Of a DNA stretch of 64,000 nucleotides, positions 455 to 57,749 are shown piece after piece; the first letter of the stretch is position 1, and each line of letters opens with the position of its first letter. The translations under genes and the position numbers were made by a program. The stretch comes from Nakazawaea peltata (lineage: Eukaryota > Ascomycota > Pichiomycetes > Alaninales > Pachysolenaceae): the NCBI GenBank assembly GCA_001599355.1, contig BCGQ01000001.1:623135-687134 (forward strand), in the 5' to 3' direction. Below the pieces are notes generated by a model. That model had not been told where the DNA came from, did not search any database, and worked only from the letters and a program-made list of their open reading frames with translations.

Positions 455-1942
455 ATGTCCAAGAGGGTACCTGGAGGCCAACAGATAGTATTGAAAGTAT
501 CTGATGATATAATTCAGAGATCATTGGGAGCCGAATCTAACAAAGTAATCACCGATATTAAGTCAAACGACAGCGAGAGAAGTGAAGATATCGAATCATT
601 TTATAGTGGGAAACTCAACTGGAAAGATCTTGGTCTGTTTTTAGAGAATTTGAAAGCCGTCGATAACTCTGATCATAAGAGCATCAAATCCAGTTTACCG
701 GTTGGAGGTTTAAAGAACAACTTATTGACAGCTCCATTGAGCTACAGAATCTGCAAGTCTTGTAAAAAACCCATTTTAGAATCGCATTTATTAGAACATA
801 TAGATATTTGTGAGGAAGTCATGAGAACTAAACAGGCCACGAAGGATCGGTCTAAGTCACTGAAAGCATCTAAGAATAATGTTGATGGTGTTGGAGCCAC
901 AACCAATACCAAGAAGAAGAGAAAGAATGCCGCATCTTCTGCGTATGATACGGCAGGGGAATCCACAAAGGAGAGTACTCCAGTGGCCGGACCAACTCCA
1001 AAGAAACAGAAGAAACTGCCTAAGGAGAAGAAAGCAAAGAAAGAAAAGGCCAAGAGTACACCAAAACCAAAGGAACCAGTTGATGTTGAGAAACAGTGTG
1101 GTGTTGCTTTACCTGGAGGTGGTTTCTGTGCGAGATCTTTGACTTGTAAAACACATTCTATGGGTGCTAAAAGACTGGTTCCAGGGAGATCTGCTCCTTA
1201 TGATCAGTTATTACTGCAATATCAACGTAAAAACCAAGCCAAGATCGCCGCGGGTGCTGCTCTGCTGCAGCTGCTGCAAGATGAGTTACTCCATGGTTCT
1301 CTGGGTCCTTTGGATGAAGATGAAGAGACCCAGTTGGTGATTGAAGGTGTATCGAGATCTTATGCATTACCTCTTGAAAGGAAGGTGATCATGCCTACCA
1401 GATTAAGATCCAAATTCTTGAGAATGAGAGAAATGTTTGCTGGTGCATTATTACCAAGAGTTGGAAATTCATCTTCAAATACCAGTATAGAGGGAAGAAC
1501 TCTGGTAGTTGATGTGGATCGTCCTAATGAATATTTCCATCTGGTAAGACCTCCGCAGAGAGTGGCTATAAGTCAATTACAGCAACATTATCTGCAACAG
1601 CAGCAATTACAGCAGCAACAGTTACAGCAACAACAGCAACAACAACAGAAGCTGAACTCTCTCCAACAACAAGGGCAACTGCAACCTCAACAAGTGCAAC
1701 AACAAATACCCCAGCAGCAGCTAACTCAACAAGCTCAACAGCAGCAAAAACAACAGCAGCAACAGCAACAACAAATGCAACAATTACAGGCATCTCAGTT
1801 GACTCCAGAACAACAGCAGATGTTGCTTCAAAGACAGCAACAACAAAGACGTCTGCAATTACTCCAACAGCAAAGATTACAACAAATGCAGCTGCTGCGT
1901 CTGCTGCTGGTTCTGCAACAGCAACAGCTGAAATTTAGGTAG
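455..1942 (+). CDS. SGF73: SAGA deubiquitinase-module subunit Sgf73 (ataxin-7-like)
   Basis: Sgf73 tethers the Ubp8 deubiquitinase module to the SAGA histone acetyltransferase complex. The 495-residue protein has an early zinc-finger-like segment (CKSCKKPILESHLLEHIDIC, about residues 107-126), a Lys-rich linker, then the SCA7 domain from about residue 217 with CGVALPGGGFCARSLTCKTH and the PGRSAPYDQLL motif. The C-terminal quarter, from about residue 372, is glutamine-rich. CTG codons fall at sites where other fungal SCA7 domains have alanine: residue 241 in KR-x-VPGRS (1175-1177) and residue 254 in LL-x-QYQRKNQAK (1214-1216). The CTG pairs at 1262-1279 turn the following segment into an alanine-rich helix. 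Length is in the family range and the start is the first ATG of the frame. Confidence 0.93.
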   Translation: MSKRVPGGQQIVLKVSDDIIQRSLGAESNKVITDIKSNDSERSEDIESFYSGKLNWKDLGLFLENLKAVDNSDHKSIKSSLPVGGLKNNLLTAPLSYRICKSCKKPILESHLLEHIDICEEVMRTKQATKDRSKSLKASKNNVDGVGATTNTKKKRKNAASSAYDTAGESTKESTPVAGPTPKKQKKLPKEKKAKKEKAKSTPKPKEPVDVEKQCGVALPGGGFCARSLTCKTHSMGAKRLVPGRSAPYDQLLLQYQRKNQAKIAAGAALLQLLQDELLHGSLGPLDEDEETQLVIEGVSRSYALPLERKVIMPTRLRSKFLRMREMFAGALLPRVGNSSSNTSIEGRTLVVDVDRPNEYFHLVRPPQRVAISQLQQHYLQQQQLQQQQLQQQQQQQQKLNSLQQQGQLQPQQVQQQIPQQQLTQQAQQQQKQQQQQQQQMQQLQASQLTPEQQQMLLQRQQQQRRLQLLQQQRLQQMQLLRLLLVLQQQQLKFR

Positions 1943-2003
1943 TATCTAAATGTGTAATAATTCGATAATGTTTGTATTAATATATACAGTTGAGACTAGG
2001 TAG

Positions 2004-3359
2004 TCAGAATTCTTGCCCTGGTTGTTGAGGAAAGAACATCATCACACATCCGAAGAAGGCAGTCATCAATGCGGCATTGTAAATTGCTTTAAAGAGCCCA
2101 TCGAATCTGAAACTCTTACTTTCGGTACGTCTTATGGCTATACTTAATTGGTGAGTCATGGCTTCTCTTGAAAATTTGGATCTTACCCAGGAATTTCCCT
2201 TGGAATAATCAGGATTCTTAGTGATAATCTCATCCATAACCTCGGCCCATAACTCTGGTTTCGGATCTCTCAAATGACCTGTCTCTCCTTCTTGGACAGA
2301 TTCCAACGGCCCACCGAACTTAACAGCCAATACAGGTTTGTTCAGTCTCATAGCCTCCAACGGAACGATTCCGAAATGCTCGAAGAGAGGAGTGTATAAC
2401 AATAAAGAGGTGTTTGCGATCAAGGCATCTTTCATACTGGTCGGAATCGAAGGCATGAACAATACTTTCACAGATCTAGGCATCAGGACCAAACGTCCTC
2501 TGAAAGTGAACGATTGTATATCCAATTTTTTACAGAGTTCTTCCAATTCAATGAGGTACTGGACATTCTTATAGTTTCTAGGATCGAATCCACCCAGAAT
2601 TACCAATTTGACATTAGAAGCTTGATCAGGATGGTTCTCCAAATAGAGGTGGAAGGCATTGATGGCCAATTCGATGTTCTTTGGCTTGTCGAATCTGTTG
2701 ATCGATAAGAAGTACTTGCTTTTACCAAAGAATTCAATGACATCTTTGTTAGCTTGCAGATCACTGTGAATTTCAGTATCAACACAAGGATAGACCACCT
2801 CTGGATCCAAATTAGACAACCTCTTGAAAGTATCCTTGAAGATCGACTTAGTATATAACGAGTTAACGACGATATTGTCGGCGTATCCAGTGGTCATCTC
2901 TTCCAAGTAATCGAAAGGAATTCTATACATAGCTCTAATAAATGAATCATGTGAGGCCAGTAATAAATCCGGATGGTGGCAATAGAACAATACCTTAGCA
3001 TCCTTCTTCTTGGAGAAATGCAAGAATGGTATACAGAAGGACAACTGATCAACGATGAACAAGTCATATTGCTTGATTTCACCTGTAAGGATCAAGCGTA
3101 ACACCAAATAGAACTGTCTCAAGATTGAACATAATATGGCGAACTTATTCATGATCTTGGTAGGTAAGAAGTCTCCATAGACTTCGACGTCCAAAGTGTT
3201 ATTCTTGATCTCTTCAAAGCAATGAGAACGATCACAATGGGAAGTGATCATAGTGACATCATTGTCTTCTTGTTGTAACCCCACTGCGGCATCGACAACC
3301 AACCTTTCGGCGCCCCCAATTCCCAAATCCGGGTGAATAAAAGCTATTTTCAAAGGCAT
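2004..3359 (-). CDS. ALG2: ER alpha-1,3/1,6-mannosyltransferase Alg2
   Basis: Alg2 adds the second and third mannoses to the dolichol-linked oligosaccharide on the cytosolic face of the ER. The protein opens with PLKIAFIHPDLGIGGAERLV, the GT4 N-terminal motif. The donor-site region is GIVPLEAMRLNKPVLAVKFG near residue 360, containing the conserved E-x7-E pattern, and a hydrophobic C-terminus ends at FFPQQPGQEF. I place the start at 3359 because the preceding nine codons of the open frame (to 3386) add nothing conserved. It shares a 0.46-kb divergent promoter with HCR1. Its 3' end is about 60 bp from that of SGF73, so the two genes converge. Confidence 0.94.
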   Translation of the reverse strand: MPLKIAFIHPDLGIGGAERLVVDAAVGLQQEDNDVTMITSHCDRSHCFEEIKNNTLDVEVYGDFLPTKIMNKFAILCSILRQFYLVLRLILTGEIKQYDLFIVDQLSFCIPFLHFSKKKDAKVLFYCHHPDLLLASHDSFIRAMYRIPFDYLEEMTTGYADNIVVNSLYTKSIFKDTFKRLSNLDPEVVYPCVDTEIHSDLQANKDVIEFFGKSKYFLSINRFDKPKNIELAINAFHLYLENHPDQASNVKLVILGGFDPRNYKNVQYLIELEELCKKLDIQSFTFRGRLVLMPRSVKVLFMPSIPTSMKDALIANTSLLLYTPLFEHFGIVPLEAMRLNKPVLAVKFGGPLESVQEGETGHLRDPKPELWAEVMDEIITKNPDYSKGNSWVRSKFSREAMTHQLSIAIRRTESKSFRFDGLFKAIYNAALMTAFFGCVMMFFPQQPGQEF

Positions 3360-3386
3360 TATCTGATGACCTGTTAGTAGTGACAC

Positions 3387-3823
3387 CAGATCCGGAACCT
3401 AAACTATATATAAGTGTATATTCGGAAACTGAGCGGATTAGTGCGGTAGCTGCGCAGATGCAGGCAGTGTCTTTGGAATGGCGGTGATTATTTGCTGAGT
3501 AGGTCAGACCGATAAGACAGAAGAGCAGAGAACGAATAATGGGGGCACAGAGAGGGGGGGGGGTTCGTGGTTTCTGGAACTACTTGAGATGTTCTGCTAC
3601 GGACAACTAGAATCGCCTCTAAGACTCAACAAAATCATCCTGCTTCATCCCTCGAATCCACCCCTCGAGTCCCCCCAGTTACCCCCACCTCCCAGTCAAC
3701 TATCCTCGATGGCATTACCCGGCCTAAATCCCCTTCGCGCCCTTTAAATTTTCCTTCAAGTTAAAATTTTTCTCCCCTTAAGGCTCCTCAGAACGGTAGT
3801 AACAGAGATAGAACGTAATAGAA
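3387..3823. promoter_or_regulatory. Divergent promoter between ALG2 and HCR1
   Basis: This gap holds the start regions of two divergent genes. It shows a pure G run near 3552-3561, a C-rich stretch near 3650-3690, and T-rich/AT-rich sequence just before the HCR1 start. I see no small gene or RNA in it. Confidence 0.6.
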
Positions 3824-4627
3824 ATGTCTTGGGACGACGAAGATTTCGAGGTACCAACCAGCAGTAATGTTGCTGCTTCATGGGAAGATGGACTTGATGA
3901 TGATGAACCAATTTTAGAGTCATGGGACGCTGAATCCGAAGATGAAAAGCCAAAGAAGGCCGCCGTTCCAGCTAAGAAACCGGCTCCAAAAGCCGCCGCC
4001 AAGGGTAAGAAGGCCGCTGGTGCAAGTAAATTGTTGGATATCGACAGAGTCGATGAAAAGACAAGGAAAGAGATGTTGAAACAAGCCGAGTTGGACTCCG
4101 ATTTGAATAACGCTGCTGATCTTTTCGGTGGTTTGGGAGTCGCCGATGAGCATCCAAGAGCTAGACTGCTGCTGAAGGCCGCCGCCACCGCCGCTGAAAC
4201 TAAGACTCCAGCTCTCACTAAGGACACTCCAATCGACGTACATCCACTCTTTGAAGTCGAGACCAAGCAGGACTTTGAGAAATTACGTAAACTGCTTTCA
4301 CCAGCCATCACCAAAACTGCCAACGCCAGTAACCTTTACTATTCGTCAGCTTTGGCTATCGATTTAATTAGAGATATCACCGGACCTTTGTCTGTTGAGA
4401 ACATGAGAAAAGTATTGTCTACATTGAATGTCATTGTTAAGGAGAAAGAAAGACAAGAAAGACAACTGAGATTGGCCAAAGCCGGTACCTCGATTGGAGG
4501 TGCCGGTAAGAAGAAGGCCAAGCCAGTTGCCAAGTCATCTTTGGGTTCTAATTCTTTCAAGAAGGACTTGGACGTTGACACCACTAATTACGAAGATGAC
4601 GATTTCGGAGATGACGACTTCATGTAA
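3824..4627 (+). CDS. HCR1: Translation initiation factor eIF3 subunit j
   Basis: Hcr1/eIF3j stabilises eIF3 on the 40S subunit and also acts in 20S pre-rRNA processing and termination. The 267-residue protein begins with the family's acidic Trp motif ([11 protein letters not shown]), has an Ala/Lys-rich middle, and then the conserved helical core ALAIDLIRD...[16 protein letters not shown] with KEKERQER. It ends in a very acidic [10 protein letters not shown] tail. In-frame CTG occurs as a triplet (4166-4174) next to an alanine tract, at 4292-4294 and at 4466-4468 (RQ-x-RLAKAG). As alanine these give [14 protein letters not shown] and RQARLAKAG, both more typical of the family than leucine. 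The gene is oriented divergently from ALG2. Confidence 0.95.
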
Positions 4628-6788: not shown

Positions 6789-9104
6789 ATGAGGGCAATT
6801 GGCATATTATACTGTTTAGGGGTCATTCTAAGGCTCAGCAGGGTGCTGGCGAACCAGGAAGTTCTAGATCTCACCGATACTCCCTCCGCCACCCCACTCT
6901 CGCCCCTGGAACAAGCCTTACAATTACTCAAACCCTACGAACAAATAGACCAGGAGTACCCTCCTCTTCATTTTGAAGAGGTTTTGTCGGGAAAAGAGGC
7001 CGACGGTAAACCTCGTGTGGACTTATATGTGGATTTCAGTTGGGAATGGGAGAAACGTAGATATAATAGACAAATGAGCCAATTGAAGGACGATCAAAGG
7101 CTGGCGCTAGCTCAACTTGAAGAGGCGCTGGGTCAAAATGACCCCAAATCAACAGAAATCTTAGCCGAAATCAAAATGTTTGGTAACTATTCCATACCGA
7201 GAAACGGATCTGAGTCATTTTTATACTACAAACACCTTGTTGAACTCGACCCATCTAATGCTAATGCCCATTTCATGTTGGCTTTCATCTATGCCACTGG
7301 ATTATTTGGGGAACTGGAGCTTAACCAACCTAAAGCATTATTACATTACGAAGCGGCTCATGAGTTGGGTGATTTAAGAGCCACGTTGGCTTTAGCATAC
7401 CGTCATTTCCAAGGAATATCAGTGCCTAAGAATTGTGAGTTGGCCTTGTTCTATTACAGTATGGTGGCTCAAAAGTCTCTGCAAATAGTCCTGGACGGAC
7501 CCATTGGAGGATTGAATATAGACTCTTATAGTATTAGAATTGCTGATTTCAATGGTGGATTATATGGAGAGAAGGCCAGTGAACAACACTCATCTCTTAC
7601 AAGAACTCTTAGTGAACATCTCTATGAAAGAGATAACCTCTTTGAAGTGGATATGGACCCAGAAACTTATAAACCACTGCTGCTCTATTATGAAGCTAGA
7701 TCTTATTATACTGCAGACTACTTCCATTCAAGAGACTATAAAGCAGCATTTGACCTGTTACAAAGATGTATAGTTGAAGGAGAGCAATGGGCTTCAGAAG
7801 TTGGATCCCTCAATAGAGTATTTGTCTCTAGATGTTATTCATTACTTGGGCATATGTATCTTCGTGGTGAAGGTACTAAACAAGATTATAATCTTGCAAG
7901 ACTGATGTTAAACAATCTGTCTCAATTGAGTAGTAGATCTTCTTATCATACTGATATGGGTCTCATTGTGGAATATGGACTTGGATTAGAAGAGCCTAAT
8001 CTTCCTGCTGCTCAACTCTTGTACCAAGAAGGTCCTTCAAGATTCAATTATGCTCGTACATTATTGGCTACGGGAGAAAATACTAGGAAGGCTCTTGAAT
8101 TGATGCAAGTAGCAGCTTATGGAGGCAATGACGAGGCATTATATCATTTGGCTAAACTGTATGAAAGAGGTATTGGGGGTCGTAAAGCTTGTGAGGATAT
8201 CGTGGTTCCTTATAAACTGTTTGTAGAGAGGATAGAGAACCAATTTCCAATATTGAAATGGTCTTTCAAACAGTTATTTGCTCGTAGATCTGATTTGGCA
8301 TTGATAGGGTATGCTATTGCGGCCGAATTAGGGTATGAATCAGCTCAATCTTCCGCCGCTTACTTACTTTATGCACCTGTACTGATCTCTGAAAAGTTAC
8401 CTAAGATCCCTAAAGAGAGATTTGAAGCGGCCCTCACCTACTACTCAAGATCAGCTAAACAACATAATATAGATTCTCTTGTGTTTTTAGGTGATCTCTT
8501 CTACTATGGAGTTCTCTCCCCAGATCTGACAGAAGATGTCTTATTAGTTGCTCCAGATTATAAAAAACTGTTCAAATACTACCAAGATGCCTCAAACAAA
8601 CATTCCAAACAAGGAAGCTTCAATGTAGGTTACATGTATGAGCAAGGTTTAGGTGTTCCTCGTGATTATCATTTGGCTAAAAGGTACTATGATTTAGCTC
8701 TTTTAGGTAAATCTTCAGATGTTTATTTCCCGGTCCAATTGTCTCTAGTCAAATTGAAGTTCAAAATGTTCTGGAGCAGACTTATAGGAGGAACTTACAT
8801 CGAAGATGAACCTTCAAGGACTCGGACTTGGAGTGATTGGAAGCTGTGGTACCATAGATTAAGAAATGCTAATGATGAATTTTATCGGGAATTACAATCT
8901 GACTCTCACAATGATGGTCATACTCAATACGATCTGATAGACGCAGATCTGGAAGATATCTTGGATTTGATCGTGTTTGGGTTATTTGTATTTATGTTTG
9001 TCACTATATTCGTTGTACAACATTTAAGAAGACGTAGACAACAGGAAGAGGGTGAACAACAAGGGGGGAATTTTCAATTTAATTTTATGATAATTCCGTT
9101 ATAA
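6789..9104 (+). CDS. HRD3: ERAD ubiquitin-ligase cofactor Hrd3 (SEL1L)
   Basis: Hrd3 is the lumenal partner of the Hrd1 ubiquitin ligase and receives misfolded ER glycoproteins. The 771-residue protein has an N-terminal signal peptide (first ~22 residues, ending near VLANQ), then many Sel1/TPR-like repeats. Typical repeat blocks are LALAYRHFQG, LGHMYLRGEGTKQDYNLARL and FNVGYMYEQGLGVPRDYHLA. One transmembrane helix lies near the C-terminus (LDLIVFGLFVFMFVTIFVVQ), followed by a short basic/Gln-rich cytosolic tail. Length and topology match yeast Hrd3. Start: first ATG directly before the signal peptide. Its 3' end faces SEC13. Confidence 0.93.
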   Translation: MRAIGILYCLGVILRLSRVLANQEVLDLTDTPSATPLSPLEQALQLLKPYEQIDQEYPPLHFEEVLSGKEADGKPRVDLYVDFSWEWEKRRYNRQMSQLKDDQRLALAQLEEALGQNDPKSTEILAEIKMFGNYSIPRNGSESFLYYKHLVELDPSNANAHFMLAFIYATGLFGELELNQPKALLHYEAAHELGDLRATLALAYRHFQGISVPKNCELALFYYSMVAQKSLQIVLDGPIGGLNIDSYSIRIADFNGGLYGEKASEQHSSLTRTLSEHLYERDNLFEVDMDPETYKPLLLYYEARSYYTADYFHSRDYKAAFDLLQRCIVEGEQWASEVGSLNRVFVSRCYSLLGHMYLRGEGTKQDYNLARLMLNNLSQLSSRSSYHTDMGLIVEYGLGLEEPNLPAAQLLYQEGPSRFNYARTLLATGENTRKALELMQVAAYGGNDEALYHLAKLYERGIGGRKACEDIVVPYKLFVERIENQFPILKWSFKQLFARRSDLALIGYAIAAELGYESAQSSAAYLLYAPVLISEKLPKIPKERFEAALTYYSRSAKQHNIDSLVFLGDLFYYGVLSPDLTEDVLLVAPDYKKLFKYYQDASNKHSKQGSFNVGYMYEQGLGVPRDYHLAKRYYDLALLGKSSDVYFPVQLSLVKLKFKMFWSRLIGGTYIEDEPSRTRTWSDWKLWYHRLRNANDEFYRELQSDSHNDGHTQYDLIDADLEDILDLIVFGLFVFMFVTIFVVQHLRRRRQQEEGEQQGGNFQFNFMIIPL

Positions 9105-9135
9105 CGACAATGAATGATACTGTGTATTAGAATAG

Positions 9136-11748: not shown

Positions 11749-14469
11749 ATGAAAGTAGGTGTTGTGTTATCTTTGTCTACTGTTGTGGTGAACCTTGTCG
11801 CTGCGGCTATTGTCGGAGTCGATTTGGGACACGAATACACCAAGAGCGTGCTTGTGGCCCCAGGGATCCCCTTCGAGATCCTTTTAACCGCCGACTCCAA
11901 AAGGAAAGATGTCAGTGGTATTGGGTTCAAACTGTTACCTGATGGTGATGTCGAGAGACTCTATGGATCCACTACCTTACTGCACTGTATCAAGTCGCCT
12001 AAGAATTGTTTATTGAACTTGAAGCAATTGTTAGGCCGCAGTATTGATGATTCCGCCGTCACTCATTACATGTCAAGACACAAGGGTGTGTCTTTGAAGG
12101 AATCTAAGGGTCAAAGGAACACAATTCTGGTCGAGGTTGATAAATTGGGGGCTGTAGCAGTCGAAGAAGTGTTGGCCATGTCACTTTCTGATATCAAAAC
12201 AAGGGCTCTGGCCCATGTTAAGAGTGTCATTTCTACTGCTTATGGTGTTAATGACATTGTACTCACTGTACCAGCTTTCTATACTCAGCTGCAAAGACAA
12301 GCCATCATTGATGGTGCTGAGATTGCCGGTTTCAATGTAATTGGTTTAGTAGATGACGGGTTTGCCGTCGCCATGAACTATGTCTCTTCAAGACAATTCG
12401 ATTCAGACAAGAAACAGTATCATATTGTGTATGATATTGGTGCTGGTTCCACCAAAGCAACCTTGTTCTCGGTTATTGGTAACCAGACTACTGGAGGCTC
12501 AATTGTAGAAGTCGAAGGTTATGGATATGATGAAGAATTGAGTGGTGAAGCTCTTACTAAGTCGGTTTTCGATCTTTTACAAGAACAATTCCTTGAGAAA
12601 CATCCAAAAATCTCTTCTAAAGATTTCATTAACAATGGAAGATCTGTTAATAAGTTATGGCAAGCTGCTGAGAAGGCCAAATTGATTTTAAGTGCTAATA
12701 ATGAGGCCTCTGTCTCTGTAGAATCTTTATATGATGAGATTGATTTCAAGGCGAAGATTACAAGAGAAGAATTCCAAGAAACTAACTCCCATTTGATGAC
12801 TCGTGTCACTAAACCACTTTTAGATATTTTCGAGTCTCCTTTGAACGGTGAACTTTCTGTTTCCATTAAAGACGTTGAGTCGGTCATTTTGACTGGTGGT
12901 TCAACAAGGGTTCCATTCGTACAAAAACATTTGGTTTCTTTGACTGGTGAGGATAAAATATCCAAGAATGTGAATGCCGATGAAGCTGCAGTTCTTGGAG
13001 CCACATTACGTGGTGTTATTCTTTCTGATATGTTCAAAGCTAAGGATATTTCATCTACTGAACGTTCTCCTTCTTCATTTAATATGGGGGTTGGATCAAG
13101 TGTGGTCCCTGTTTTCCCACGCGGAGCTGTCAAAGGAGATCAAGTGACTTTAGAATTACCTGAGATTACAAATGATGAGTTCAGTTTGGACTTGTACGAA
13201 AATGGTCACTTATTCGAGAGTTGGCTGTTCAGTGATATGAAGAAACAGTTGGCTTCATTTAATGAATCTGAAACCGTCAAAGTAGTCGGAGTTTTCTCCC
13301 TCTCACACAGTAATATGTTTAGCTTGGATAAAGTCCAGATTAAAGCTGAAGGTAAGAAATCTGTGATGGAGAAACTCTTTGGAGGATCTGAAGAAGAAGT
13401 AGAAGTCGATCAGGAAGCCGATCCAGTTGATCTGGCTTCTAATTCTACTGAATCGACCCAGAAAACAGAAGAGAAGAAGCCAAGAAAGAAAGCAGTCACA
13501 TTGAAAGGAAAGAAATCATCTGCTTCTTACGTTCCATTGAGTAGTTTCTCTAAAAAACTGGCTATTGAAAGACTCGATGAGTTAGCATCCAAGGACTCCG
13601 CTAGAAAGAAGCGTGAGAGCACAAGAAATAACTTGGAAGCTGCTTTATACAGTTTACGCTCCCAATTAGAAGAAGTCTCAGCCGAGTTTGAATCCAGTGA
13701 GTTGTTTGAATCTCTGGAGAAGTTGATCTCTGAGTACTTGGAATGGTTGGATTACGACAGTGACTCAGCTAGTCTCAAGGAGATCAAATCTAAATTAGAT
13801 GATGTGAAAGTTTTGAAACTGAAGTTGATCGCATACTCTGAGTTCTTACATATCCCTGACGATGAAGGTAGTGTATTCAATAAATTACACAAGAGAACTC
13901 TTCTGTCGATGCATGATATTCAAGACATTATGCTTACTATGGCTGAGGACGCAGCCTCTTTGAGAACCAACTTCACGGCTATCGGTCTCGATTGGGAGGA
14001 AGAGAATAAGAACATCAAATTGACCAACTTACCTCAATTAAACGACAAAGATGTTCAAGATTTATTCATGTCATTGAATGATGACGTGGAAGATCTCATC
14101 TCCAGAAAGCTTGTCCAAACTGAAGACAGTCCAGAGGACAAGACTGGAGACTACGATAAGGACGAATTATTTACTACATACCAGCAAATAAGTGCTAAGG
14201 TTGACAAGTTAGATGAATACAAGGCTCTTTTAGAGAAGGCTCATACCCAAAGAGTCAATGCTTTGAGAAAGATATATAGAAGAAACTTCTCTAAGAAGCT
14301 TAAGGAAGCTCAACTGTCAGCATATGCCGAGGCAGCCAAGGGATCTAAGAGTGATAGTGAGGCAGAGACGGAGAAAGAAACTGGAACTGAATCCGAATCC
14401 GAATCCCAAACCGTGTCTCAATCCACTCAATCCTCCCAATCATCTGACCCATCCCATGACGAATTATAG
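11749..14469 (+). CDS. LHS1: ER-lumenal Hsp70-type chaperone/nucleotide exchange factor Lhs1
   Basis: Lhs1 (Grp170 class) is the nucleotide-exchange factor of Kar2/BiP and helps translocation and folding in the ER. The 906-residue protein has a signal peptide (about residues 1-20) and then the Hsp70 ATPase domain: VGVDLGHEYTKSVLV, VYDIGAGSTKATLF near 227, and LTGGSTRVPFVQ near 381. A long charged C-terminal helical region follows, and the last four residues are HDEL, an ER-retrieval signal. The CTG at 12289-12291 (residue 181, YTQ-x-QRQA) occupies the Ala of the Hsp70 motif D-A-Q-R-Q-A. Its 3' end is 220 bp before YCF1. Confidence 0.95.
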   Translation: MKVGVVLSLSTVVVNLVAAAIVGVDLGHEYTKSVLVAPGIPFEILLTADSKRKDVSGIGFKLLPDGDVERLYGSTTLLHCIKSPKNCLLNLKQLLGRSIDDSAVTHYMSRHKGVSLKESKGQRNTILVEVDKLGAVAVEEVLAMSLSDIKTRALAHVKSVISTAYGVNDIVLTVPAFYTQLQRQAIIDGAEIAGFNVIGLVDDGFAVAMNYVSSRQFDSDKKQYHIVYDIGAGSTKATLFSVIGNQTTGGSIVEVEGYGYDEELSGEALTKSVFDLLQEQFLEKHPKISSKDFINNGRSVNKLWQAAEKAKLILSANNEASVSVESLYDEIDFKAKITREEFQETNSHLMTRVTKPLLDIFESPLNGELSVSIKDVESVILTGGSTRVPFVQKHLVSLTGEDKISKNVNADEAAVLGATLRGVILSDMFKAKDISSTERSPSSFNMGVGSSVVPVFPRGAVKGDQVTLELPEITNDEFSLDLYENGHLFESWLFSDMKKQLASFNESETVKVVGVFSLSHSNMFSLDKVQIKAEGKKSVMEKLFGGSEEEVEVDQEADPVDLASNSTESTQKTEEKKPRKKAVTLKGKKSSASYVPLSSFSKKLAIERLDELASKDSARKKRESTRNNLEAALYSLRSQLEEVSAEFESSELFESLEKLISEYLEWLDYDSDSASLKEIKSKLDDVKVLKLKLIAYSEFLHIPDDEGSVFNKLHKRTLLSMHDIQDIMLTMAEDAASLRTNFTAIGLDWEEENKNIKLTNLPQLNDKDVQDLFMSLNDDVEDLISRKLVQTEDSPEDKTGDYDKDELFTTYQQISAKVDKLDEYKALLEKAHTQRVNALRKIYRRNFSKKLKEAQLSAYAEAAKGSKSDSEAETEKETGTESESESQTVSQSTQSSQSSDPSHDEL

Positions 14470-14689: not shown

Positions 14690-17600
14690 TTGAATATGGT
14701 GTCATTTGGTTCTATGGAACAGTTGGTTCTCGAGGAACCTGGGTGGGTTACTACTGGTAGTGAGTTGGTCGGGTCATCGTACGGCACCAGTACCCAGATA
14801 AGTGGCAAAGTGGTTGCGAATTCTTGTGGTTCATGGTATCCTTTGACGGATGAGTATCTGAACACGTTGAGTCCATGTTTCGTTTGTCTTGTGTTGGCAG
14901 TTCTTGCCCTTCTGACCTCTGTTAGAGCCGTTTTCGACCTTGCTTCTACTAAGAAAAGCTATGGGAAGATTTCGGTCTCAAATTATACTCATCTTATTAG
15001 ATGTAACTCTGTGTTCACTCAAGGATTATTATTCTTCATTGCTGGAACTAGTTATATCTCCAAGGGACTCCCATTGTACGATATTAAAGTCTTAGGTTTG
15101 GGACTCACCACTCTTTTAATCTTAGGTGTCTTATTACCTCTTCATATCATTGAGATTAAGAGTAGAATTATCCCCTATGGTATTTTACTTCTGTATTGGC
15201 CATTACATATCTTTGTTCTTGTGGGCATTTGTGTTCAGCAGTTGTTCTCTGACGTCAAGATCATCGATATCCCATACCTTGACCTTGTCATGCTCATCAA
15301 TTCTACTGCTATCTTCCTCTTGGAATTAAATAGATATGAACCTACTAAAGAATTAGTCCAGCATTATGAAGATGAAGGATTGAATCTTAAAGTTCCTCAT
15401 TTCATCTCCCGTCTTACCTACTCCTACATTTACCCATTGTTGGAGAAGGGAAGATACGGTACTATCACTGAAGATGACGTAGAAGATCCTGTCGATTTGG
15501 ATAATACCGACGAATCTGCCCGTAAAATTGGCTATCATTGGAATTTTGAGATCAATAAAAAGAAACCTAGCTTGGGTTGGGCCGTTTTCAAATCGTTATT
15601 GCCAACTATGATCGGGTCTCTGCTGTTGCAATTGGTAGAGAACTTGTTCTTATTCTTACAACCCCAACTTTTGAGATTTTTCATCCAATTCTTCAATGCT
15701 CCAAAGGAAACTCCTATGATCATTGGATTTGGTCTTGCTTTTGCCATGTTCTTGTGTTCTATTCTTAGAGTTACCGTCTATAATCAGTACTTTATCATGA
15801 ATTTCGAGGCTGCATTCCGTGCTAAAGCCGGTTTGATGGCCTTGATTTATCAGAAATCGTTGAACTTATCTCAGGAAGCCAAAGCTGCTACAACTACCGG
15901 AGATATCATCAACTTGATGTCAGTAGATGTCCTGAGAGTCCAAGATGTGCTGTCAATTTCCCAAGATTTGCTCTCGGCTCCTACCAAGTTGGTCTTGTGT
16001 ATTTTCTCATTACACTCTTTGCTTGGTAATGCGTTATGGGGAGGTATTTTGGTGATGCTGGTGATGATCCCAATCAACACTTTCTTAGTAAAATCCATGA
16101 GAAAGTTACATAAACAACAGATGGTATATAAAGATAAAAGAAGTCGTCTCGTCAACGAGATCTTGACTTCGATTAAAAGTATCAAGCTTTATAGTTGGGA
16201 GAAACCAATGTTGGAGAGGTTAAGACATGTGAGGAACAACGAGGAGATGCTGAATTTACGTAGGATCGGTGTTTTCTCAGCTATAGTGAGTTTCTCATGG
16301 AACTCGGTGCCATTCTTTGTGTCATGTGCTTCTTTCTCTCTCTTTGCCGTATTCTCTAAGACTCCATTAACTTCTGACTTGATCTTCCCGGCATTATCGT
16401 TATTTGATTTGTTAGGGGAACCTATCTTTGCTCTCCCGGCCATTATAACAGCCTTAATTGAGATCAATATCGCCTTGGGAAGAATCAAAGCCTTCCTTAG
16501 AGCTTCTGAGATCGACGATTCTTATATTTCTCATACTCCAGCGGTATCTCATCGTGGAGATGTAGCTGTTTCTATTGAAAATTGTACTTTCTACTGGCAG
16601 AAACCTCAAACAGCCGACGGTTCAGCTGCTGAGGAAGAACATCTCATAGACTCAGGTAAAGTAGCCCTTTCTCATGTAGAATTCCAACTGAAGAAAGGTG
16701 AGTTATCTTGTGTAGTAGGTAGAGTAGGAAGTGGTAAGTCCACTTTTATGCAAGCTATTTTGGGAGAATTGATGTGTTCACCATACGATCCAGATAAACC
16801 GGCCAAGATCACTCTTGCCGGTGATATCGCTTACTGTGCTCAAGTACCTTGGATCATGAATGCCAGTGTTAAGCAGAATATCTTGTTTGGTAAACGTTGT
16901 GAAGATGACTTCTACCAGAAGACCCTTGAGCTGTGTCAATTACTTGAGGACCTTAAAGTGTTACCTGATGGAGATGAGACTCTCGTTGGAGAGAAGGGAA
17001 TCTCTTTGAGCGGTGGTCAGAAGGCCAGAATTAGTTTGGCTCGTGCTGTCTATCGTCGTGCTGACATTTATCTTTTAGATGATATTCTTTCTGCTGTAGA
17101 TGCTCATGTAGGTAAGAAGATTACTGAACAAGTATTGAGTTCTAGTGGTCTTTTGGCTTCTAAGACCGTTATCTTGGCTACTAATTCTGTCCCTGTACTT
17201 TCTCATTCGAAGAACATCGTTTTATTGGACCATGGAGTTATCAAGGAGACTGGATCTTTCGACGAGGCTGTTGCTGCTGAGTCTGCTCTTTATGAATTGA
17301 TCAAAGAGTTTGGTTCTCAAAGCAATGATTCTGAAGAAGATGTCTCTGATACTCTGACCGAGGAAGTTATCATCGAGGAAGTCGAAGCCAAGGATGTCGA
17401 GAATTTGGATCTGGAAAATGTCATCGATGAAATGCCTGAATTGGACAGAGCCTTGTCTCATGTCACTTTGAGACGTCCTTCAACTGCTACCTTCCGTAGA
17501 ATCCCTCTTGTAGTCAATGATAACAGAAAGACTGCTCTGGAAGCCGAGAAAATGGAGATCGGTAAGGTCAAGAAATCGGTCTACATCGCCTATGCCAAAG

Positions 17601-19333
17601 CTTGTACCTACTCTGGAGTAACTATCTTTATCCTCTGTATCATAGCCAATGCCTCGTTCGGTGTCGCTGGTAATTATTGGTTGAAACTGTGGTCCGAAGA
17701 AAATAACAAAAATGGGGGTAACTCCAACGTAGTCAGATTCGTATCTATTTATGTGCTGCTTGGTCTCACGGCCGGTCTTTGTAACTTACTTTGTGCCGTG
17801 GTCATGTGGATTCTTTGTATCATTAAACTGTCTAAATCGTTACATGACGACATGAGTAGATCTATCTTGTCTGCTCCTATGTCTTTCTTCGAAACTACTC
17901 CTATTGGAAGAATTACAAACAGATTCACTAATGATATAAGTAAGGTCGATGAATATATACCTAGAGTTATTTCTGGGTTCTTCAAGAATGGTATCATGAC
18001 CGTCTTCACACTTTGTATCATCGCCTTTTCTATGCCTCAGTTCATTATCATCATGAGTGTTTTATCTGTTTTGTATATTTATTTCCAGAAGTGTTTCCTG
18101 AATACTTATCGTCAATTCAAGCGTATGCAAAGTGTCTCTATGAGTCCAATTTATGCCCATTTGCAAGAGACTTTGAATGGTAGAGATACCATTAAAGCTT
18201 ATAGTGATATCCCAAGGTTTAAATTCTTCAACTCGGCCCATATTGACTTCAATCAAAAGATGTTCTATGGAATCCGGATCGTCAACAGATGGCTTACTAT
18301 GCGTCTTCAATTTATTGGATCTTTGGTTATCTTGGCTGCATCTTCGTTGGCTATTTTATCCAGACTTAAAACTCCACTTAGCTCTGGAATGGTTGGTTTG
18401 GTCATGACATATGCTTTGCAAATTACCGGGAATTTGACCTGGTTAGTTAGAATGAGTGTAGAAGTAGAGACTAGTATTGTTTCTGTAGAGAGAATCTTGG
18501 AATACAGTAAATTGAAGCCGGAACTGGATGCTATTATTGAAGGTCATAGACCTGCTGAGAACTGGCCTTCTGAAGGTGCCGTCAAATTTGTCGATTATAC
18601 CACCAAATATCGTGCCAATTTGGATCCGGTCTTGAAGAATATCAATATCGATGTCAAACCAGAAGAAAAGGTTGGTATTGTCGGTAGAACTGGTGCTGGA
18701 AAGTCCACCTTGACCAGTGCTATATATAGATTGATCGAACCTACTGGTGGTCATATAGAAATCGATGGTATTAATACCAGCGAGATCGGTTTGTATGATT
18801 TAAGACACAAGTTGAGTATTATTCCTCAAGATTCTCAAGTATTGGAAGGAACAGTCCGTCAAAATTTGGATCCTTTCGATGAGTACACTGATGAGCAATT
18901 ATGGGCAGCTTTGAAATTGTCTCATTTAGAGGAGGCCATCAGACTGATGGCAGATTCAGAAGACCCAGAGAATTCAGGTTTAAGACTGAAGACTTCAGAA
19001 GGGGGTTCTAATTTATCGGTAGGTCAAAGACAATTGATGTGTCTTGCCAGAGCTTTATTGAGTACATCCAAAATTTTGATTTTAGATGAGGCCACAGCTG
19101 CTGTTGATGTTCAAACCGATAAAATCATCCAAGAAACCATCCGTTCCGAATTCAAACATAAAACCATCTTAACAATCGCCCATAGATTAGATACTGTCAT
19201 GGATAGTGACAAGATTCTTGTCTTGGACAAGGGAGAAGTCAAAGAATTTGATACTCCACAAAATTTATTGAACGATTCCAATACCATTTTCTATAACTTA
19301 TGCAAACAGGGTGGTTATCTTAAAGACCAATAA
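14690..19333 (+). CDS. YCF1: Vacuolar MRP/ABCC-type glutathione-conjugate transporter Ycf1
   Basis: Ycf1 pumps glutathione conjugates and metal-thiol complexes into the vacuole. The 1547-residue protein has the ABCC plan: N-terminal TMD0, TMD1, NBD1, linker, TMD2, NBD2. NBD1 shows Walker A GRVGSGKST (about 677), LSGGQK (about 773) and LLDD (about 793). NBD2 shows GRTGAGKST (about 1332), LSVGQRQ (about 1442) and ILDEATAAVD (about 1462). The acidic linker between NBD1 and TMD2 contains RRPSTATFRR, a candidate phosphorylation patch as in Ycf1. This gene gives the best genetic-code evidence: CTG at 16688, 16931, 17756, 17828, 18524 and 18986 all line up with alanines of S. cerevisiae Ycf1 as I recall it (FQAKKG, EAC, YFALG, HASK, SEAP, LDAQ). 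Confidence 0.96.
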   Translation: MNMVSFGSMEQLVLEEPGWVTTGSELVGSSYGTSTQISGKVVANSCGSWYPLTDEYLNTLSPCFVCLVLAVLALLTSVRAVFDLASTKKSYGKISVSNYTHLIRCNSVFTQGLLFFIAGTSYISKGLPLYDIKVLGLGLTTLLILGVLLPLHIIEIKSRIIPYGILLLYWPLHIFVLVGICVQQLFSDVKIIDIPYLDLVMLINSTAIFLLELNRYEPTKELVQHYEDEGLNLKVPHFISRLTYSYIYPLLEKGRYGTITEDDVEDPVDLDNTDESARKIGYHWNFEINKKKPSLGWAVFKSLLPTMIGSLLLQLVENLFLFLQPQLLRFFIQFFNAPKETPMIIGFGLAFAMFLCSILRVTVYNQYFIMNFEAAFRAKAGLMALIYQKSLNLSQEAKAATTTGDIINLMSVDVLRVQDVLSISQDLLSAPTKLVLCIFSLHSLLGNALWGGILVMLVMIPINTFLVKSMRKLHKQQMVYKDKRSRLVNEILTSIKSIKLYSWEKPMLERLRHVRNNEEMLNLRRIGVFSAIVSFSWNSVPFFVSCASFSLFAVFSKTPLTSDLIFPALSLFDLLGEPIFALPAIITALIEINIALGRIKAFLRASEIDDSYISHTPAVSHRGDVAVSIENCTFYWQKPQTADGSAAEEEHLIDSGKVALSHVEFQLKKGELSCVVGRVGSGKSTFMQAILGELMCSPYDPDKPAKITLAGDIAYCAQVPWIMNASVKQNILFGKRCEDDFYQKTLELCQLLEDLKVLPDGDETLVGEKGISLSGGQKARISLARAVYRRADIYLLDDILSAVDAHVGKKITEQVLSSSGLLASKTVILATNSVPVLSHSKNIVLLDHGVIKETGSFDEAVAAESALYELIKEFGSQSNDSEEDVSDTLTEEVIIEEVEAKDVENLDLENVIDEMPELDRALSHVTLRRPSTATFRRIPLVVNDNRKTALEAEKMEIGKVKKSVYIAYAKACTYSGVTIFILCIIANASFGVAGNYWLKLWSEENNKNGGNSNVVRFVSIYVLLGLTAGLCNLLCAVVMWILCIIKLSKSLHDDMSRSILSAPMSFFETTPIGRITNRFTNDISKVDEYIPRVISGFFKNGIMTVFTLCIIAFSMPQFIIIMSVLSVLYIYFQKCFLNTYRQFKRMQSVSMSPIYAHLQETLNGRDTIKAYSDIPRFKFFNSAHIDFNQKMFYGIRIVNRWLTMRLQFIGSLVILAASSLAILSRLKTPLSSGMVGLVMTYALQITGNLTWLVRMSVEVETSIVSVERILEYSKLKPELDAIIEGHRPAENWPSEGAVKFVDYTTKYRANLDPVLKNINIDVKPEEKVGIVGRTGAGKSTLTSAIYRLIEPTGGHIEIDGINTSEIGLYDLRHKLSIIPQDSQVLEGTVRQNLDPFDEYTDEQLWAALKLSHLEEAIRLMADSEDPENSGLRLKTSEGGSNLSVGQRQLMCLARALLSTSKILILDEATAAVDVQTDKIIQETIRSEFKHKTILTIAHRLDTVMDSDKILVLDKGEVKEFDTPQNLLNDSNTIFYNLCKQGGYLKDQ

Positions 19334-34340: not shown

Positions 34341-35249
34341 ATGAGCTTCTCAAATCCTTCTCCAAAATATAACCATTTACTCCCTCCAACAGGAGCTTGG
34401 AAACAACAGATAACCGACTGGATCTCAGAAGATATCCCATCCTTCGACTACGGTGGGTACGTTGTTGGTGATAAAGTTAACTCTGCCACTTTATGGTGCA
34501 AAAGTGATGGTGTTTTAAGTGGGGTGCCGTTTGCAAAAGAAGTATACGATCAATGTGGATTGAAACATGAATGGTTCATTGAAGAAGGTGTCTATCTTGA
34601 GCCATCAAAGACAGAATCTGGTAAGATCAAGGTGGCTACAGTTGAAGGACCAGTGAAAAATATTTTAGTGGCCGAACGATTATCGTTAAATATCTTAGCT
34701 CGTGCTTCGGGAATCGCTACTAAGTCGTTTATCACTGTCAAATTAGCTCGTGAGGCCGGCTATACGGGTATTATTGCAGGTACTAGAAAGACTACCCCAG
34801 GTTTACGTTTGATCGAGAAATACTCGATGATCGTTGGTGGTTGTGATGCTCATCGTTACGACTTATCTTCGATGGTGATGTTAAAAGATAACCACATTTG
34901 GTCGACCGGTTCGATCACCAAGGCGGTTGAAAGCGCACGTAAAGTTATTGGATTCTCTACAAAGATCGAAGTGGAAGTTCAGAGCGAGGAAGAGGCCAAT
35001 GAACTGATTGCTGCAGGTGCCGATATCATCATGTTGGATAATTTCGATGGTCAAGGTTTGAAAGTGGCTCTGCAATCCATCAAGGCCAAATGGAATGGCT
35101 CCAACAAACTGTTTTTCTTAGAGTGTAGTGGGGGTTTAACTTTGGAGAATATTTCTACGTATCTTTGTAACGATATTGATATTTATTCTACCTCATCGGT
35201 ACACCAAGGGTGTTCTATTGTTGATTTCAGTTTGAAAATCAATCATTAG
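34341..35249 (+). CDS. BNA6: Quinolinate phosphoribosyltransferase (NAD synthesis)
   Basis: Bna6 converts quinolinate and PRPP to nicotinate mononucleotide in de novo NAD synthesis. The 302-residue protein has the family landmarks: [33 protein letters not shown] (shortened here to [10 protein letters not shown] and EKY), [16 protein letters not shown], the catalytic [11 protein letters not shown] region and [11 protein letters not shown]. The CTG at 35004-35006 (residue 222) sits in NE-x-IAAGAD, where homologs have Ala (EAIEAGAD in S. cerevisiae as recalled). Length is normal. The gene is divergent from ECO1. Confidence 0.95.
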
Positions 35250-46909: not shown

Positions 46910-48382
46910 ATGCCCATGAACAGTTATATCACACCTCAGTCTCCTGATACCAATCAAAGGCTGTCATCGAGTGGAGAATCTCAGCCTGAAATGCAACGAT
47001 TCAATTCACATAATTCATCCAGTTCTCATCTGCATAGCAGTCATTCAAGTCATCAAGTGACGACACTGAGTTCGGTGCCACATCACTCGTCATCACTGGC
47101 CTCGGCGTCTCTGAACTCAGCATCACTGAACGCGGTATCACTGTCTTCAGCACCTCTGTCAGCGCTGCTGCTTCAAGACCGTAGAAGGAGGGGTTCTTCA
47201 TTAGGTAATTTGTTTTATTCACTTCTGACTTCATTAAGAGTCCAGTCATCCAACTCATCTTCATCGTCATTAGTTCTTAATACTTCAACGGCAGTACCAT
47301 CACCATCGAACCACCTGTCTCATCAGACTCCTTCACCTAGAACCCTGCTGCCATCTTTATCACACCATGCTTCTACTGCCACTATCAGACCATCGTTTGG
47401 AAGGGATTCTTCCAATAATAATTTAGGAACAAGTTTACTGATGAGCCCAACTATTGCCGATATCAGTGAGGTAGCTTCTGCTCCAGCTGTCAATAATAAC
47501 ACTAATGATGTTTCCATGACGTCATTAGATCTGTGTCAAGATGAGGCCAGTCATGCGGCATCCAATGATATCGCCATGGGATCGGGATCTGGGACAGATG
47601 AGGACTTAGATCATGCCAGAACAAGACATAATTCAACTGCCGTCGGCACTCAAACACCCGATGAAACCGAAACTGCTGCCAAAAGTGACGCCGATGGAAG
47701 TTACTCTCTCAGACTTACACCTTTCATCGACCATTCCTCTTCGTCTCCTCTGTTATATTTCTCTCCTCTCATCAGGAAATTGAAACCTGGAATGAGAATC
47801 TCTGTAGGCAGATACACTGAGAGAAATAGAGAAGCAGCTCAAGCTCCATCTGGATCGTCAGCTGCGGTCATCTTCAAATCGAAAGTTGTATCGAGGACTC
47901 ATCTGGAAGTGCTCGTAGATGAACATGGAAATTGGTATATCAAGGATTTGGGTTCGTCTTCAGGTACGTTCTTGAATCATATCCGACTTTCCCCAGCTGG
48001 TGAAGAGAGTCAAGACTGCATGTTAACAGATGGAGACATCCTCCAATTAGGAATGGATTTCCGTGGAGGATCAGAAGAGATCTTTAGATGTGTCAAAGTG
48101 AGAATCGAGTTAAACAAATCATGGAAGCGTAAGACTCATAAATTTAACAAAGAAGCACATAAGAAATTACTTGGACAAGAGACTGAATGTTGTATTTGTT
48201 TGAATGATCTTAAAGTTGGAGATAGTATTTTTATTAGTCCATGTTCTCATAGTTGGCATTATAAATGTATTAGGCCGTTGTTGGTGCGGAATTATCCGCA
48301 ATTCCATTGTCCTAATTGTCGTTGTATAACGGATCTTGAGGAGGATGATGATGAGGTGGAGTCTGATGGGTATAGTACTTAG
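46910..48382 (+). CDS. FHA-RING E3 ubiquitin ligase of the Dma1/Dma2 type
   Basis: Dma proteins ubiquitinate septin-ring and spindle-checkpoint targets and are relatives of human CHFR/RNF8. The N-terminal half (about 1-250) is Ser-rich and low in complexity. The FHA domain covers about 285-395: ISVGRYTER, KVVSRTH, GNWYIKDLGSSSGTFLNHIR and DGDILQLGMDFRGG. The C3HC4 RING covers about 427-472: CCICLNDL, CSHSWHYKCIRPLL and HCPNCRC. An acidic tail follows. The CTG at 47903-47905 gives SRTH-x-EV; FHA domains have SR.HAE, so Ala fits. Length 490. I cannot assign it to Dma1 or Dma2, which arose by duplication in Saccharomyces. Confidence 0.95.
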   Translation: MPMNSYITPQSPDTNQRLSSSGESQPEMQRFNSHNSSSSHLHSSHSSHQVTTLSSVPHHSSSLASASLNSASLNAVSLSSAPLSALLLQDRRRRGSSLGNLFYSLLTSLRVQSSNSSSSSLVLNTSTAVPSPSNHLSHQTPSPRTLLPSLSHHASTATIRPSFGRDSSNNNLGTSLLMSPTIADISEVASAPAVNNNTNDVSMTSLDLCQDEASHAASNDIAMGSGSGTDEDLDHARTRHNSTAVGTQTPDETETAAKSDADGSYSLRLTPFIDHSSSSPLLYFSPLIRKLKPGMRISVGRYTERNREAAQAPSGSSAAVIFKSKVVSRTHLEVLVDEHGNWYIKDLGSSSGTFLNHIRLSPAGEESQDCMLTDGDILQLGMDFRGGSEEIFRCVKVRIELNKSWKRKTHKFNKEAHKKLLGQETECCICLNDLKVGDSIFISPCSHSWHYKCIRPLLVRNYPQFHCPNCRCITDLEEDDDEVESDGYST

Positions 48383-56547: not shown

Positions 56548-56852
56548 TTGACTTATAACGTATCGCTGATCTGTAGATTATCACTTATCGCTTATCACTG
56601 ACTTATCACTTCTCTCCCTCACTGCTTATCGCTATTTCTCAACTTCTTTACCCCCCTTTTCACCTTATCAAATCATGCAATTTCTGCAATTTCTTCCTGC
56701 AATTTCTGCCATTTTCCCCATTGCTGCGCGCCGCAGTTCAACTGGTTTTTTGCTTCACTTGTCTATTTGAGTCACGTGATTGGTTTCAGATTCTTCTTCA
56801 GATCGATACAAATAGAAGCAAGGTGTTGGTTTATCCTAACTATTGATCCCAT
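56548..56852. promoter_or_regulatory. Divergent promoter between the UBL3-like gene and RNH1
   Basis: These 305 bp hold two 5' flanks. TATCACTTATCGCTTATCAC-type repeats (56579-56605) and TTTCTGCAATTTCTTCCTGC words occur, with a CACGTG-containing GTCACGTGAT at about 56772-56781 (a bHLH/Cbf1-type E-box). Confidence 0.55.
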
Positions 56853-57749
56853 ATGAACAGAATGGCTTACTACGCTGTTAGGAACGGAAGAACTAAGGCA
56901 ATCTATAAGTCTTGGGAGCTGTGTAAAGAGCAAGTCCATGGTTTCCCCAACGCCCAATATAAGAAGTTCAATACTTTAGATGAGGCAAAGATGTATATGG
57001 ATGGGACGAGTGTGGCTCGGAAACTGGAGCCTCTGAGACTGGAGCGTCTGGCACAGGAGCCTTCGAAACTGGAGATCGAGCTGGAGTTAGCTCGAATGGA
57101 GGAGCAGTATAAGATGAGATCCAAACCTCGGGTTGTCAGTCTTCTACGGAGGGTAGATGAAACTGATGACTTTAAGGAAGAGGTAGATGAAACCGATGAC
57201 TTTAAGGAAGAGGTAGATGAAACCGATGACTTTAAGGAAGAGGTAGATGAAACCGATGACTTTAAGGAAGAGGTGGACACTTTACATGTATATGCTGATG
57301 GTGCCTCCAGGAGAAACGGGAGTCCCGATCTGAGTTCTCTGATAGGTGTATTCTTCGGACAGGGGGACCCAAGAAATATCTCAGGTAGAATAGCAGGACG
57401 GCTCCAGACAAATCAAAGGGCAGAATTGATCCTGTTGAGGGAAGCTTTCAAAGTAGCTCTCAAATCACCAGAATACTGTATATTTTATACCGACTCTAAA
57501 TACCTGATCCAATGTTTAACCGATTGGAGACGCAAATGGGAGTCCAATGGCTGGATATCGAGCAAAGGAACTCCTGTAGCAAATGAAGAGTTGATAAAAA
57601 CTTGTCTCAAAGAGTATGACCTGCTAAATGAGCGTTATGGTCGCATGGGCTTGAGTTTGAAATTGTTCCATGTCCCTGGCCATAGGGGGATTCCTGGTAA
57701 TGAGATGGCGGACAAACTTGCTAATAAAGCGTTGGACAAGTATCCATAA
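56853..57749 (+). CDS. RNH1: Ribonuclease H1
   Basis: RNase H1 cleaves the RNA strand of RNA-DNA hybrids. The protein has an N-terminal hybrid-binding domain (about 5-55: YYAVRNGRTKAIYKSWELCK, YKKFNTLDEAKMYM). A linker of about 85 residues ends in four tandem decapeptides VDETDDFKEE (residues 101-140). The catalytic domain follows, with HVYADGASRRNG, NQRAEL, FYTDSKYL and PGHRGIPGNEMADKLA, containing the D-E-D-D active-site residues. CTG at 57432-57434 gives RAELI-x-LREA, where RNase H has a conserved Ala. Start may be at 56853 or at Met4 (56862). The final exon needs no splicing. Confidence 0.95.
   Translation: MNRMAYYAVRNGRTKAIYKSWELCKEQVHGFPNAQYKKFNTLDEAKMYMDGTSVARKLEPLRLERLAQEPSKLEIELELARMEEQYKMRSKPRVVSLLRRVDETDDFKEEVDETDDFKEEVDETDDFKEEVDETDDFKEEVDTLHVYADGASRRNGSPDLSSLIGVFFGQGDPRNISGRIAGRLQTNQRAELILLREAFKVALKSPEYCIFYTDSKYLIQCLTDWRRKWESNGWISSKGTPVANEELIKTCLKEYDLLNERYGRMGLSLKLFHVPGHRGIPGNEMADKLANKALDKYP
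57153..57272 (+). repeat. Four 30-bp tandem repeats inside RNH1
   Basis: Units at 57153, 57183, 57213 and 57243 encode Val-Asp-Glu-Thr-Asp-Asp-Phe-Lys-Glu-Glu. Units 2-4 are identical; unit 1 differs by one synonymous base. This near identity suggests recent expansion in the linker. Confidence 0.95.

Follow-up and report, generated by a model that had tools for sequence, protein, structure and literature searches.

CUG read as alanine, and CTG as a frequent codon, in a 64,000-nucleotide stretch of a budding yeast genome

Reassignment of the CUG codon to alanine, a rare change of the code, was reported in 2016. The clade of yeasts concerned (CUG-Ala; NCBI table 26) comprises Pachysolen, Nakazawaea, and Peterozyma and was set out in 2018 by Krassowski et al. 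(PMC5951914). According to that paper, the transfer RNA with anticodon CAG, tRNA(CAG), of the Ala clade was derived from tRNA-Ala through an anticodon change, and CUG in the code-changed clades is relatively rare and found at poorly aligned sites. Here we describe how CTG codons are read in a 64,000-nucleotide stretch of yeast DNA (the window), bases 623135-687134 of contig 1 in an assembly of 11.63 Mb and 11 contigs. A reading made from the letters alone (the original prediction) had taken CTG for alanine and the DNA for that of a CUG-Ala clade yeast. We reach the same view, with a probability of about 0.97: the window is nuclear DNA of a budding yeast that belongs to the CUG-Ala clade and reads CUG as alanine. 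Conservation in alignment columns, a tRNA(CAG) gene, and a tree of YCF1-type proteins agree on this.

The genome resembles those described for the clade in having CUG codons where alanine is expected, a tRNA(CAG) whose sequence points to alanine identity, a YCF1 protein that stands beside that of Pachysolen tannophilus in the tree, and CTG codons that lean to less conserved sites, which agrees with the poorly aligned sites of Krassowski et al. (PMC5951914). It differs from P. tannophilus in that the YCF1 proteins are 54% identical, and this value rules out that the window is P. tannophilus itself. With the CUG-Ser1 and CUG-Ser2 clades (Candida; Ascoidea, Saccharomycopsis; NCBI table 12) it shares the codon, the route through a tRNA(CAG), and what would be a synthetase that does not need the anticodon; with CUG-Ser1, it also shares G37 in tRNA(CAG). 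It differs from both in the amino acid, in a short-armed tRNA with G3:U70, and in its position in the tree. The Leu2 Pichiaceae (Kuraishia, Ogataea, Komagataella) are relatives, and the best named homologues of the window's sugar transporter come from Kuraishia and Ogataea; however, these yeasts use the standard code, with CUG as leucine (PMC5951914).

The original prediction cited 13 CTG codons. Because these sites were chosen by hand, the real test is one of all CTG codons. In the sugar transporter, YCF1, and HRD3, each CTG was masked as X, the proteins were searched against about 5.8 billion proteins, and the listed homologues were aligned. For each codon represented by 8 or more aligned sites, we determined the residue favored by the columns. 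The first homologue set was limited to named taxa known to use the standard code (65 of 120, 22 of 120, and 10 of 37 of the listed matches, respectively); the second contained all listed matches (120, 120, and, once filtered by length, 33 of 37). A column was removed if it was filled to less than 60% of weight, which in the first set affected 3 of 51 CTG sites and left 48 CTG columns. The standard meaning was returned for 51 of 52 codons in both sets, and the sole deviant was CTG. In the first set, the scores for CTG were +15.4 bits for alanine, -19.0 for serine, -50.9 for valine, and -54.0 for threonine, with leucine lower than threonine; alanine was ahead of serine by 34.4 bits and of leucine by more than 69 bits. 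The second set gave 12.9 bits for alanine, -21.7 for serine, and -39.7 for leucine, i.e., leads of 34.6 and 52.6 bits. A tabulation of CTG columns against standard-code orthologues, suggested along with the original prediction as a check, thus favors alanine over serine and leucine.

Strongly conserved columns of the first set gave a matching picture. Where at least 80% of the homologues have alanine, CTG accounts for 7 of the 64 codons and GCN for 47. At columns with at least 80% leucine, 1 of 118 codons is CTG, and the count is 1 of 231 when the threshold is lowered to 50%. No CTG is present among the 46 codons at columns with at least 80% serine.

We also translated genes with tables 26 (alanine), 12 (serine), and 1 (leucine) and summed the Pfam bit scores of non-overlapping families. 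The families were picked after the scores were known, and overlapping ones were omitted, e.g., TPR_17 in HRD3 and HEAT in a VPS15-like protein, each of which was best with serine. For 17 window genes, the sums were 3994.5 bits with alanine, 3954.4 with serine, and 3912.9 with leucine, and alanine was best in 14. For eight genes beyond the window (six from contig 2 and one each from contigs 1 and 3; a ninth gene without a family is excluded from the resulting 25), they were 1333.5, 1313.9, and 1236.8 bits, and alanine was best in five. The contig 3 gene, Nro1, scored 404.2 with alanine, 384.4 with serine, and 360.8 with leucine. Leucine scored below alanine in 23 of the 25 genes.

Patterns with CAG as the anticodon, spaced as in a tRNA, returned 93 matches, compared to 50 for the reversed pattern; one match was judged tRNA-like by eye. 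The tRNA(CAG) gene is located at contig 4:81426-81498. ARAGORN folds it into a 74-base cloverleaf, which the tool labels Leu from the anticodon alone. Its acceptor stem consists of G1-C72, G2-C71, G3:U70, C4-G69, U5-A68, U6 opposite U67, and A7-U66, followed by A73. With 5 bases, the variable loop is short, in contrast to the Leu and Ser tRNAs of the genome. Eight bases beyond A73 there is a run of ten T, as in genes transcribed by RNA polymerase III. G3:U70 is the chief identity element for alanyl-tRNA synthetase, and G3:U70 and A73 are common to both tRNA-Ala types found (AGC and UGC). Judged by its sequence, tRNA(CAG) has alanine identity, with G3:U70, A73, and a short variable loop; a tRNA of this kind had been proposed as a further check on the code. 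A DNA search with the tRNA sequence revealed no second copy. All six of the tRNA-Ala genes that were found, four with anticodon AGC and two with UGC, are on contig 9. At 94059-94079 of the same contig, a sequence nearly matches the 3' end of tRNA-Ala but is not a tRNA according to ARAGORN.

Outside the anticodon, tRNA(CAG) was compared at 70 positions with 21 tRNAs, a set that does not include, e.g., Val-AAC and Val-CAC; it matches Val-TAC at 51 positions, Leu-AAG at 51 (in a gapped alignment), and Ala-AGC at 49. The variable loop matches tRNA-Ala, and likewise tRNA-Met, at 5 of 5 bases; the T arm matches tRNA-Ala(AGC), and likewise Leu(AAG) and Glu(UUC), at 14 of 17; and the anticodon loop differs from the one in Leu(AAG) at base 34 alone. 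In the D arm, 17 of 19 bases match tRNA-Val(UAC), 16 match tRNA-Gln, and 13 match tRNA-Ala; a D-arm pattern search found this arm again in four Gln genes and one Val gene. These resemblances could reflect divergence or a mixed origin.

Leucine tRNAs were recognized by their D-arm pattern with at most 3 mismatches, which returned five with anticodon CAA, two with UAA, and one with AAG. Patterns spanning the anticodon to the T loop gave 67 matches for CAG and 42 for UAG (reversed controls: 58 and 91), among which the tRNAs identified by eye were solely genes already known, those for Leu(AAG) and Ser(AGA). The list of tRNAs draws on 63 scored candidates out of 608. Neither Leu(CAG) nor Leu(UAG) was found by the three pattern scans, which fall short of a full tRNA census; nothing was therefore found that would decode CUG as leucine, and for this reason we take CUG as alanine throughout. 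In the mechanism that we propose, tRNA(CAG) would be transcribed, charged by alanyl-tRNA synthetase, an enzyme indifferent to the anticodon bases, and would decode CUG by virtue of its alanine identity elements. CUU, CUC, and CUA would be decoded by Leu(IAG), and leucine would be wholly absent at CUG.

The last step can be questioned, as CUG might be read mainly as alanine and to a small extent as leucine, in the way reported for serine and leucine in Candida. Leucyl-tRNA synthetase uses A73, A35, and G37, and tRNA(CAG) carries all three, with G37 in place of the A37 seen in both tRNA-Ala types. Krassowski et al. (PMC5951914) link G37 to 3% leucine mischarging of the tRNA-Ser(CAG) of Candida albicans. 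On the other hand, tRNA(CAG) does not have the long variable arm of the genome's Leu tRNAs, conserved leucine columns are nearly free of CTG (the 1 in 118 given above), and the pattern scans found no Leu(CAG) or Leu(UAG). While a few percent of leucine would still be compatible with these observations, we consider a mixed reading improbable.

The phylogeny of 27 YCF1-type proteins, 26 of them hand-picked from 120 listed matches, pairs the window's protein with an assembly protein of a relative, with support of 100/100. These two group with two P. tannophilus copies at 100/99, and the next to be added, with 83/91, is a third P. tannophilus copy. By the YCF1 gene, the window therefore falls within the CUG-Ala clade, where the original prediction had placed it. 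Among the listed matches, the best is the assembly protein of this relative, at 59% identity, followed by P. tannophilus. No named Nakazawaea or Peterozyma proteins were among the listed matches for the transporter, YCF1, or HRD3; going by the published composition of the clade (PMC5951914), one of these two genera would nevertheless be the likely one. The relative has leucine at 10 of the 34 window CTG columns in which leucine otherwise makes up less than 10%, versus 48 of 1939 other columns (Fisher p = 1.7e-8; 18 of the 48 are at the window's own leucine codons). The plain reading is that the relative would share those CTG codons and that its proteins were translated by the standard code. 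Three matches to assembly contigs may stem from a single additional yeast of the CUG-Ala clade whose proteins were translated with the wrong code.

Several observations weigh against CUG as alanine. The mean alanine fraction is 0.28 at CTG sites versus 0.45 at GCN sites. In tRNA(CAG), U6 and U67 are mismatched, and the D arm is more similar to those of tRNA-Val and tRNA-Gln than to that of tRNA-Ala. At codon 454 of the sugar transporter (58142-58144, minus strand), CTG falls on a column that is leucine in 65 of 65 named homologues, and one of the 25 genes scored with Pfam, the window's PTP, is best with leucine. The last two observations fit the standard code, under which CUG is leucine and the alanine pattern arose by chance; however, in the decoding test leucine trails alanine by more than 69 bits, it is below alanine in all but two of the Pfam genes, CTG occupies a single one of the 231 codons at columns with at least 50% leucine, and the scans found no Leu(CAG) or Leu(UAG), so that we regard chance as a highly improbable source of the pattern. 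An alanine at codon 454 would be a genuine alteration of a conserved position.

Pfam scores are best with serine for five of the 25 genes: LHS1 and STU1 in the window and, beyond it, an ankyrin protein (Ank_2), a PH/SAM/SH3 protein, and a GT15 enzyme. In the ankyrin protein, Ank_2, the top family, which was retained in the sum, puts serine 22.4 bits over alanine, and Ank_KRIT1 also favors serine; Ank, Ank_3, Ank_4, and Ank_5 favor alanine, and LRRK2 is best with leucine by 0.3. These genes, and the second place of serine in the decoding test, are what a serine code of the CUG-Ser1 or CUG-Ser2 type can claim. Such a code has to contend with the lead of alanine (34.4 bits in decoding; with Pfam, 40.1 bits for the window genes and 19.6 for those beyond it), the lack of CTG at the 46 conserved serine codons, a tRNA(CAG) that has G3:U70 and no long variable arm, and a tree that places the window with Pachysolen and apart from the CUG-Ser rows. 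We give it hardly any credence. Alanine fits the CTG columns better than either alternative, as had been claimed, and we retain the reading of CUG as alanine in what follows.

The 13 cited positions are all CTG in the frame of their open reading frames (ORFs; Table 1), and alanine is the commonest residue or the residue of the closest match at 11. The claim that they fall on conserved alanines holds for these 11, with mixed support at 12289 and 47903, and fails at 17756 and at 1214, which is opposite valine in the one SGF73 alignment used, 6tb4_C. In YCF1, scored against 22 named standard-code homologues, alanine is present in 22 of 22 at 16688, 19 at 16931, and 16 at 18524; at 17828, there are 10 alanines, 8 glycines, and 4 serines, and at 18986 alanine is the commonest residue with 9. 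Position 17756 has leucine in 8, alanine in 7, and phenylalanine in 5 of them. The commonest residues at two further YCF1 CTG codons, 17537 and 17687, are glutamine and histidine, respectively. LHS1 12289 is alanine in two BiP chains and serine in Hsc70 (three Hsp70-type chains). FHA-RING 47903 directly follows the SRTH motif of the FHA domain and is alanine in the better of two FHA alignments and leucine in the other; the FHA score of this ORF is 54.8 with alanine, 52.4 with leucine, and 50.7 with serine.

SGF73 has CTG opposite alanine at 1175 and, beyond the cited sites, at 1262, 1265, 1271, 1274, and 1502. Its CTG codons at 635 and 1301 are opposite glutamine, 1541 is opposite serine, 860 methionine, and 1016 leucine; the others fall within a glutamine-rich tail. 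In HCR1, 4166, 4292, and 4466 are opposite alanine, 4169 is opposite leucine, and 4172 glutamine. BNA6 has 35004 and 35070 opposite alanine and 35109 opposite histidine in two chains of the same enzyme. RNH1 57432 is opposite alanine, and 56919, 57330, 57339, and 57504 are opposite glutamate, proline, glycine, and threonine. In the sugar transporter, alanine is found in 41, 65, 43, 63, and 64 of 65 homologues at codons 130, 270, 298, 342, and 379 (5' bases 59116, 58696, 58612, 58480, and 58369); codons 361 and 483 are mostly serine columns, 168 is phenylalanine, and 190 valine. Codons 114 (7128) and 594 (8568) of the HRD3-like protein are alanine in 9 of 10 homologues each, and its remaining CTG columns are mostly poorly conserved.

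Table 1. Window ORFs referred to in the text, with positions counted from the first base of the window.
Feature	Position	Strand	CTG codons	Alignment or score
SGF73 ORF	455..1942	+	23	aligned to 6tb4_C
ALG2-like glycosyltransferase ORF	2004..3359	-	5	Pfam sum best with Ala
HCR1 (eIF3j) ORF	3824..4627	+		aligned to two eIF3j chains
HRD3-like Sel1-repeat ORF	6789..9104	+	20	
LHS1-like Hsp70 ORF	11749..14469	+	12	Pfam score best with Ser
YCF1-like ABC transporter ORF	14696..19333	+	21	PDB match
STU1/CLASP-type ORF	28618..33042	+	29	CLASP_N Ser 298.1, Ala 296.9, Leu 289.6
BNA6 (quinolinate phosphoribosyltransferase) ORF	34341..35249	+		aligned to 3c2r, 3c2e
OPT transporter ORF	35789..38368	-	7	Pfam Ala 581.7, Ser 581.1, Leu 573.0
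FHA-RING (DMA-type) ORF	46910..48382	+	18	
RNH1 (RNase H1) ORF	56853..57749	+	12	aligned to three RNase H1 chains
Sugar transporter ORF	57824..59503	-	10	

The window contains 28 ORFs of at least 150 amino acids, some of them overlapping, in a listing that leaves introns out of account; its guanine plus cytosine content is 40.6%. The names YCF1, BNA6, RNH1, SGF73, and HCR1 were taken from PDB matches and the remaining names from Pfam; HRD3, LHS1, ALG2, STU1, CMR2, DCP2, and DMA are our interpretation of Pfam families. The ORF at 42357-43259 matched Ca3427-like and NMT1-like binding-protein families. Between its N-terminal domain and its RNase H domain, RNH1 carries four head-to-tail copies of the ten-residue acidic unit VDETDDFKEE (57153-57272). 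In the C-terminal tail of the DCP2-like protein (45600-46650), a short leucine-rich motif resembling NG-x-ELLxLLKK recurs many times, in several cases with CTG at x; the copy GSAELLSML has a GCN-coded alanine at the equivalent position. A search for PF03175, the killer-plasmid DNA polymerase, gave no match, and as the control genomes gave none either, it was uninformative.

Codon use was counted in an uncurated sample from 20 stretches around tRNA genes, comprising 79 ORFs that do not overlap and have 200 amino acids or more. With 788 of 37,751 codons (20.9 per 1000), CTG provides 30% of the alanine codons, second in use to GCT (903) and followed by GCC (479), GCA (337), and GCG (86). In 23 such ORFs of the window, it makes up 260 of 14,599 codons (17.8 per 1000), or 26% of the alanine codons. 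The share is lower at the aligned sites in conserved columns, with 48 CTG versus 178 GCN. CTG looks commoner here than would be expected from the relative rarity that Krassowski et al. (PMC5951914) describe in words for code-changed clades. CTA is scarce in the 23 window ORFs (29 of 14,599 codons), and LaBella et al. (PMC6701816) report a similar rarity in CUG-Ser yeasts; five CUG-Ala genomes were excluded from that 2019 codon-usage study.

An EF-Tu GTPase domain was located at 33 places, of which the eight best were inspected, with their ORFs named by eye. CTG is absent from two EF-1A-like ORFs (459 codons each; 33 GCN codons in each), an EF-2-like ORF (709 codons, cut by the locus end; 60 GCN), and an EF-Tu-like ORF (433 codons; 33 GCN). 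The other four elongation-factor-type ORFs contain 14 CTG in 767 codons, 19 in 849 (an ORF truncated at the end of its locus), 7 in 661, and 11 in 648, or 10.6-22.4 per 1000. At a share of 26-30%, the probability of no CTG among 126 alanine codons (counting one EF-1A copy) is below 1e-16. The EF-1A-like ORFs, on contigs 1 and 10, are of equal length and have equal counts of the tallied codons. The genes for EF-1A, EF-2, and EF-Tu are known to be highly expressed. We lean towards a scenario in which the reassigned CUG, with one tRNA gene found, has gone far beyond the stage of a rare leftover, is kept out of highly expressed genes, and is now used according to expression. Some CTG-alanine sites are seemingly common to a relative that is 52-74% identical, so that the spread of the codon would be old. 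Within the part of the literature seen, we found no publication on expression-dependent CUG use in the CUG-Ala clade, in a search not aimed at expression.

The code itself is already known, and the genome adds one more member to an established clade. What is new is modest: another genome of this clade, together with a counted pattern of frequent, perhaps expression-stratified, use of CUG for alanine. Standard-code translation of this genome errs at about 2% of residues per protein on average, and tools that assume CUG to be leucine or serine mislabel it. A frequent codon that is missing from some highly expressed genes would offer a direct test of how a captured codon re-enters use.

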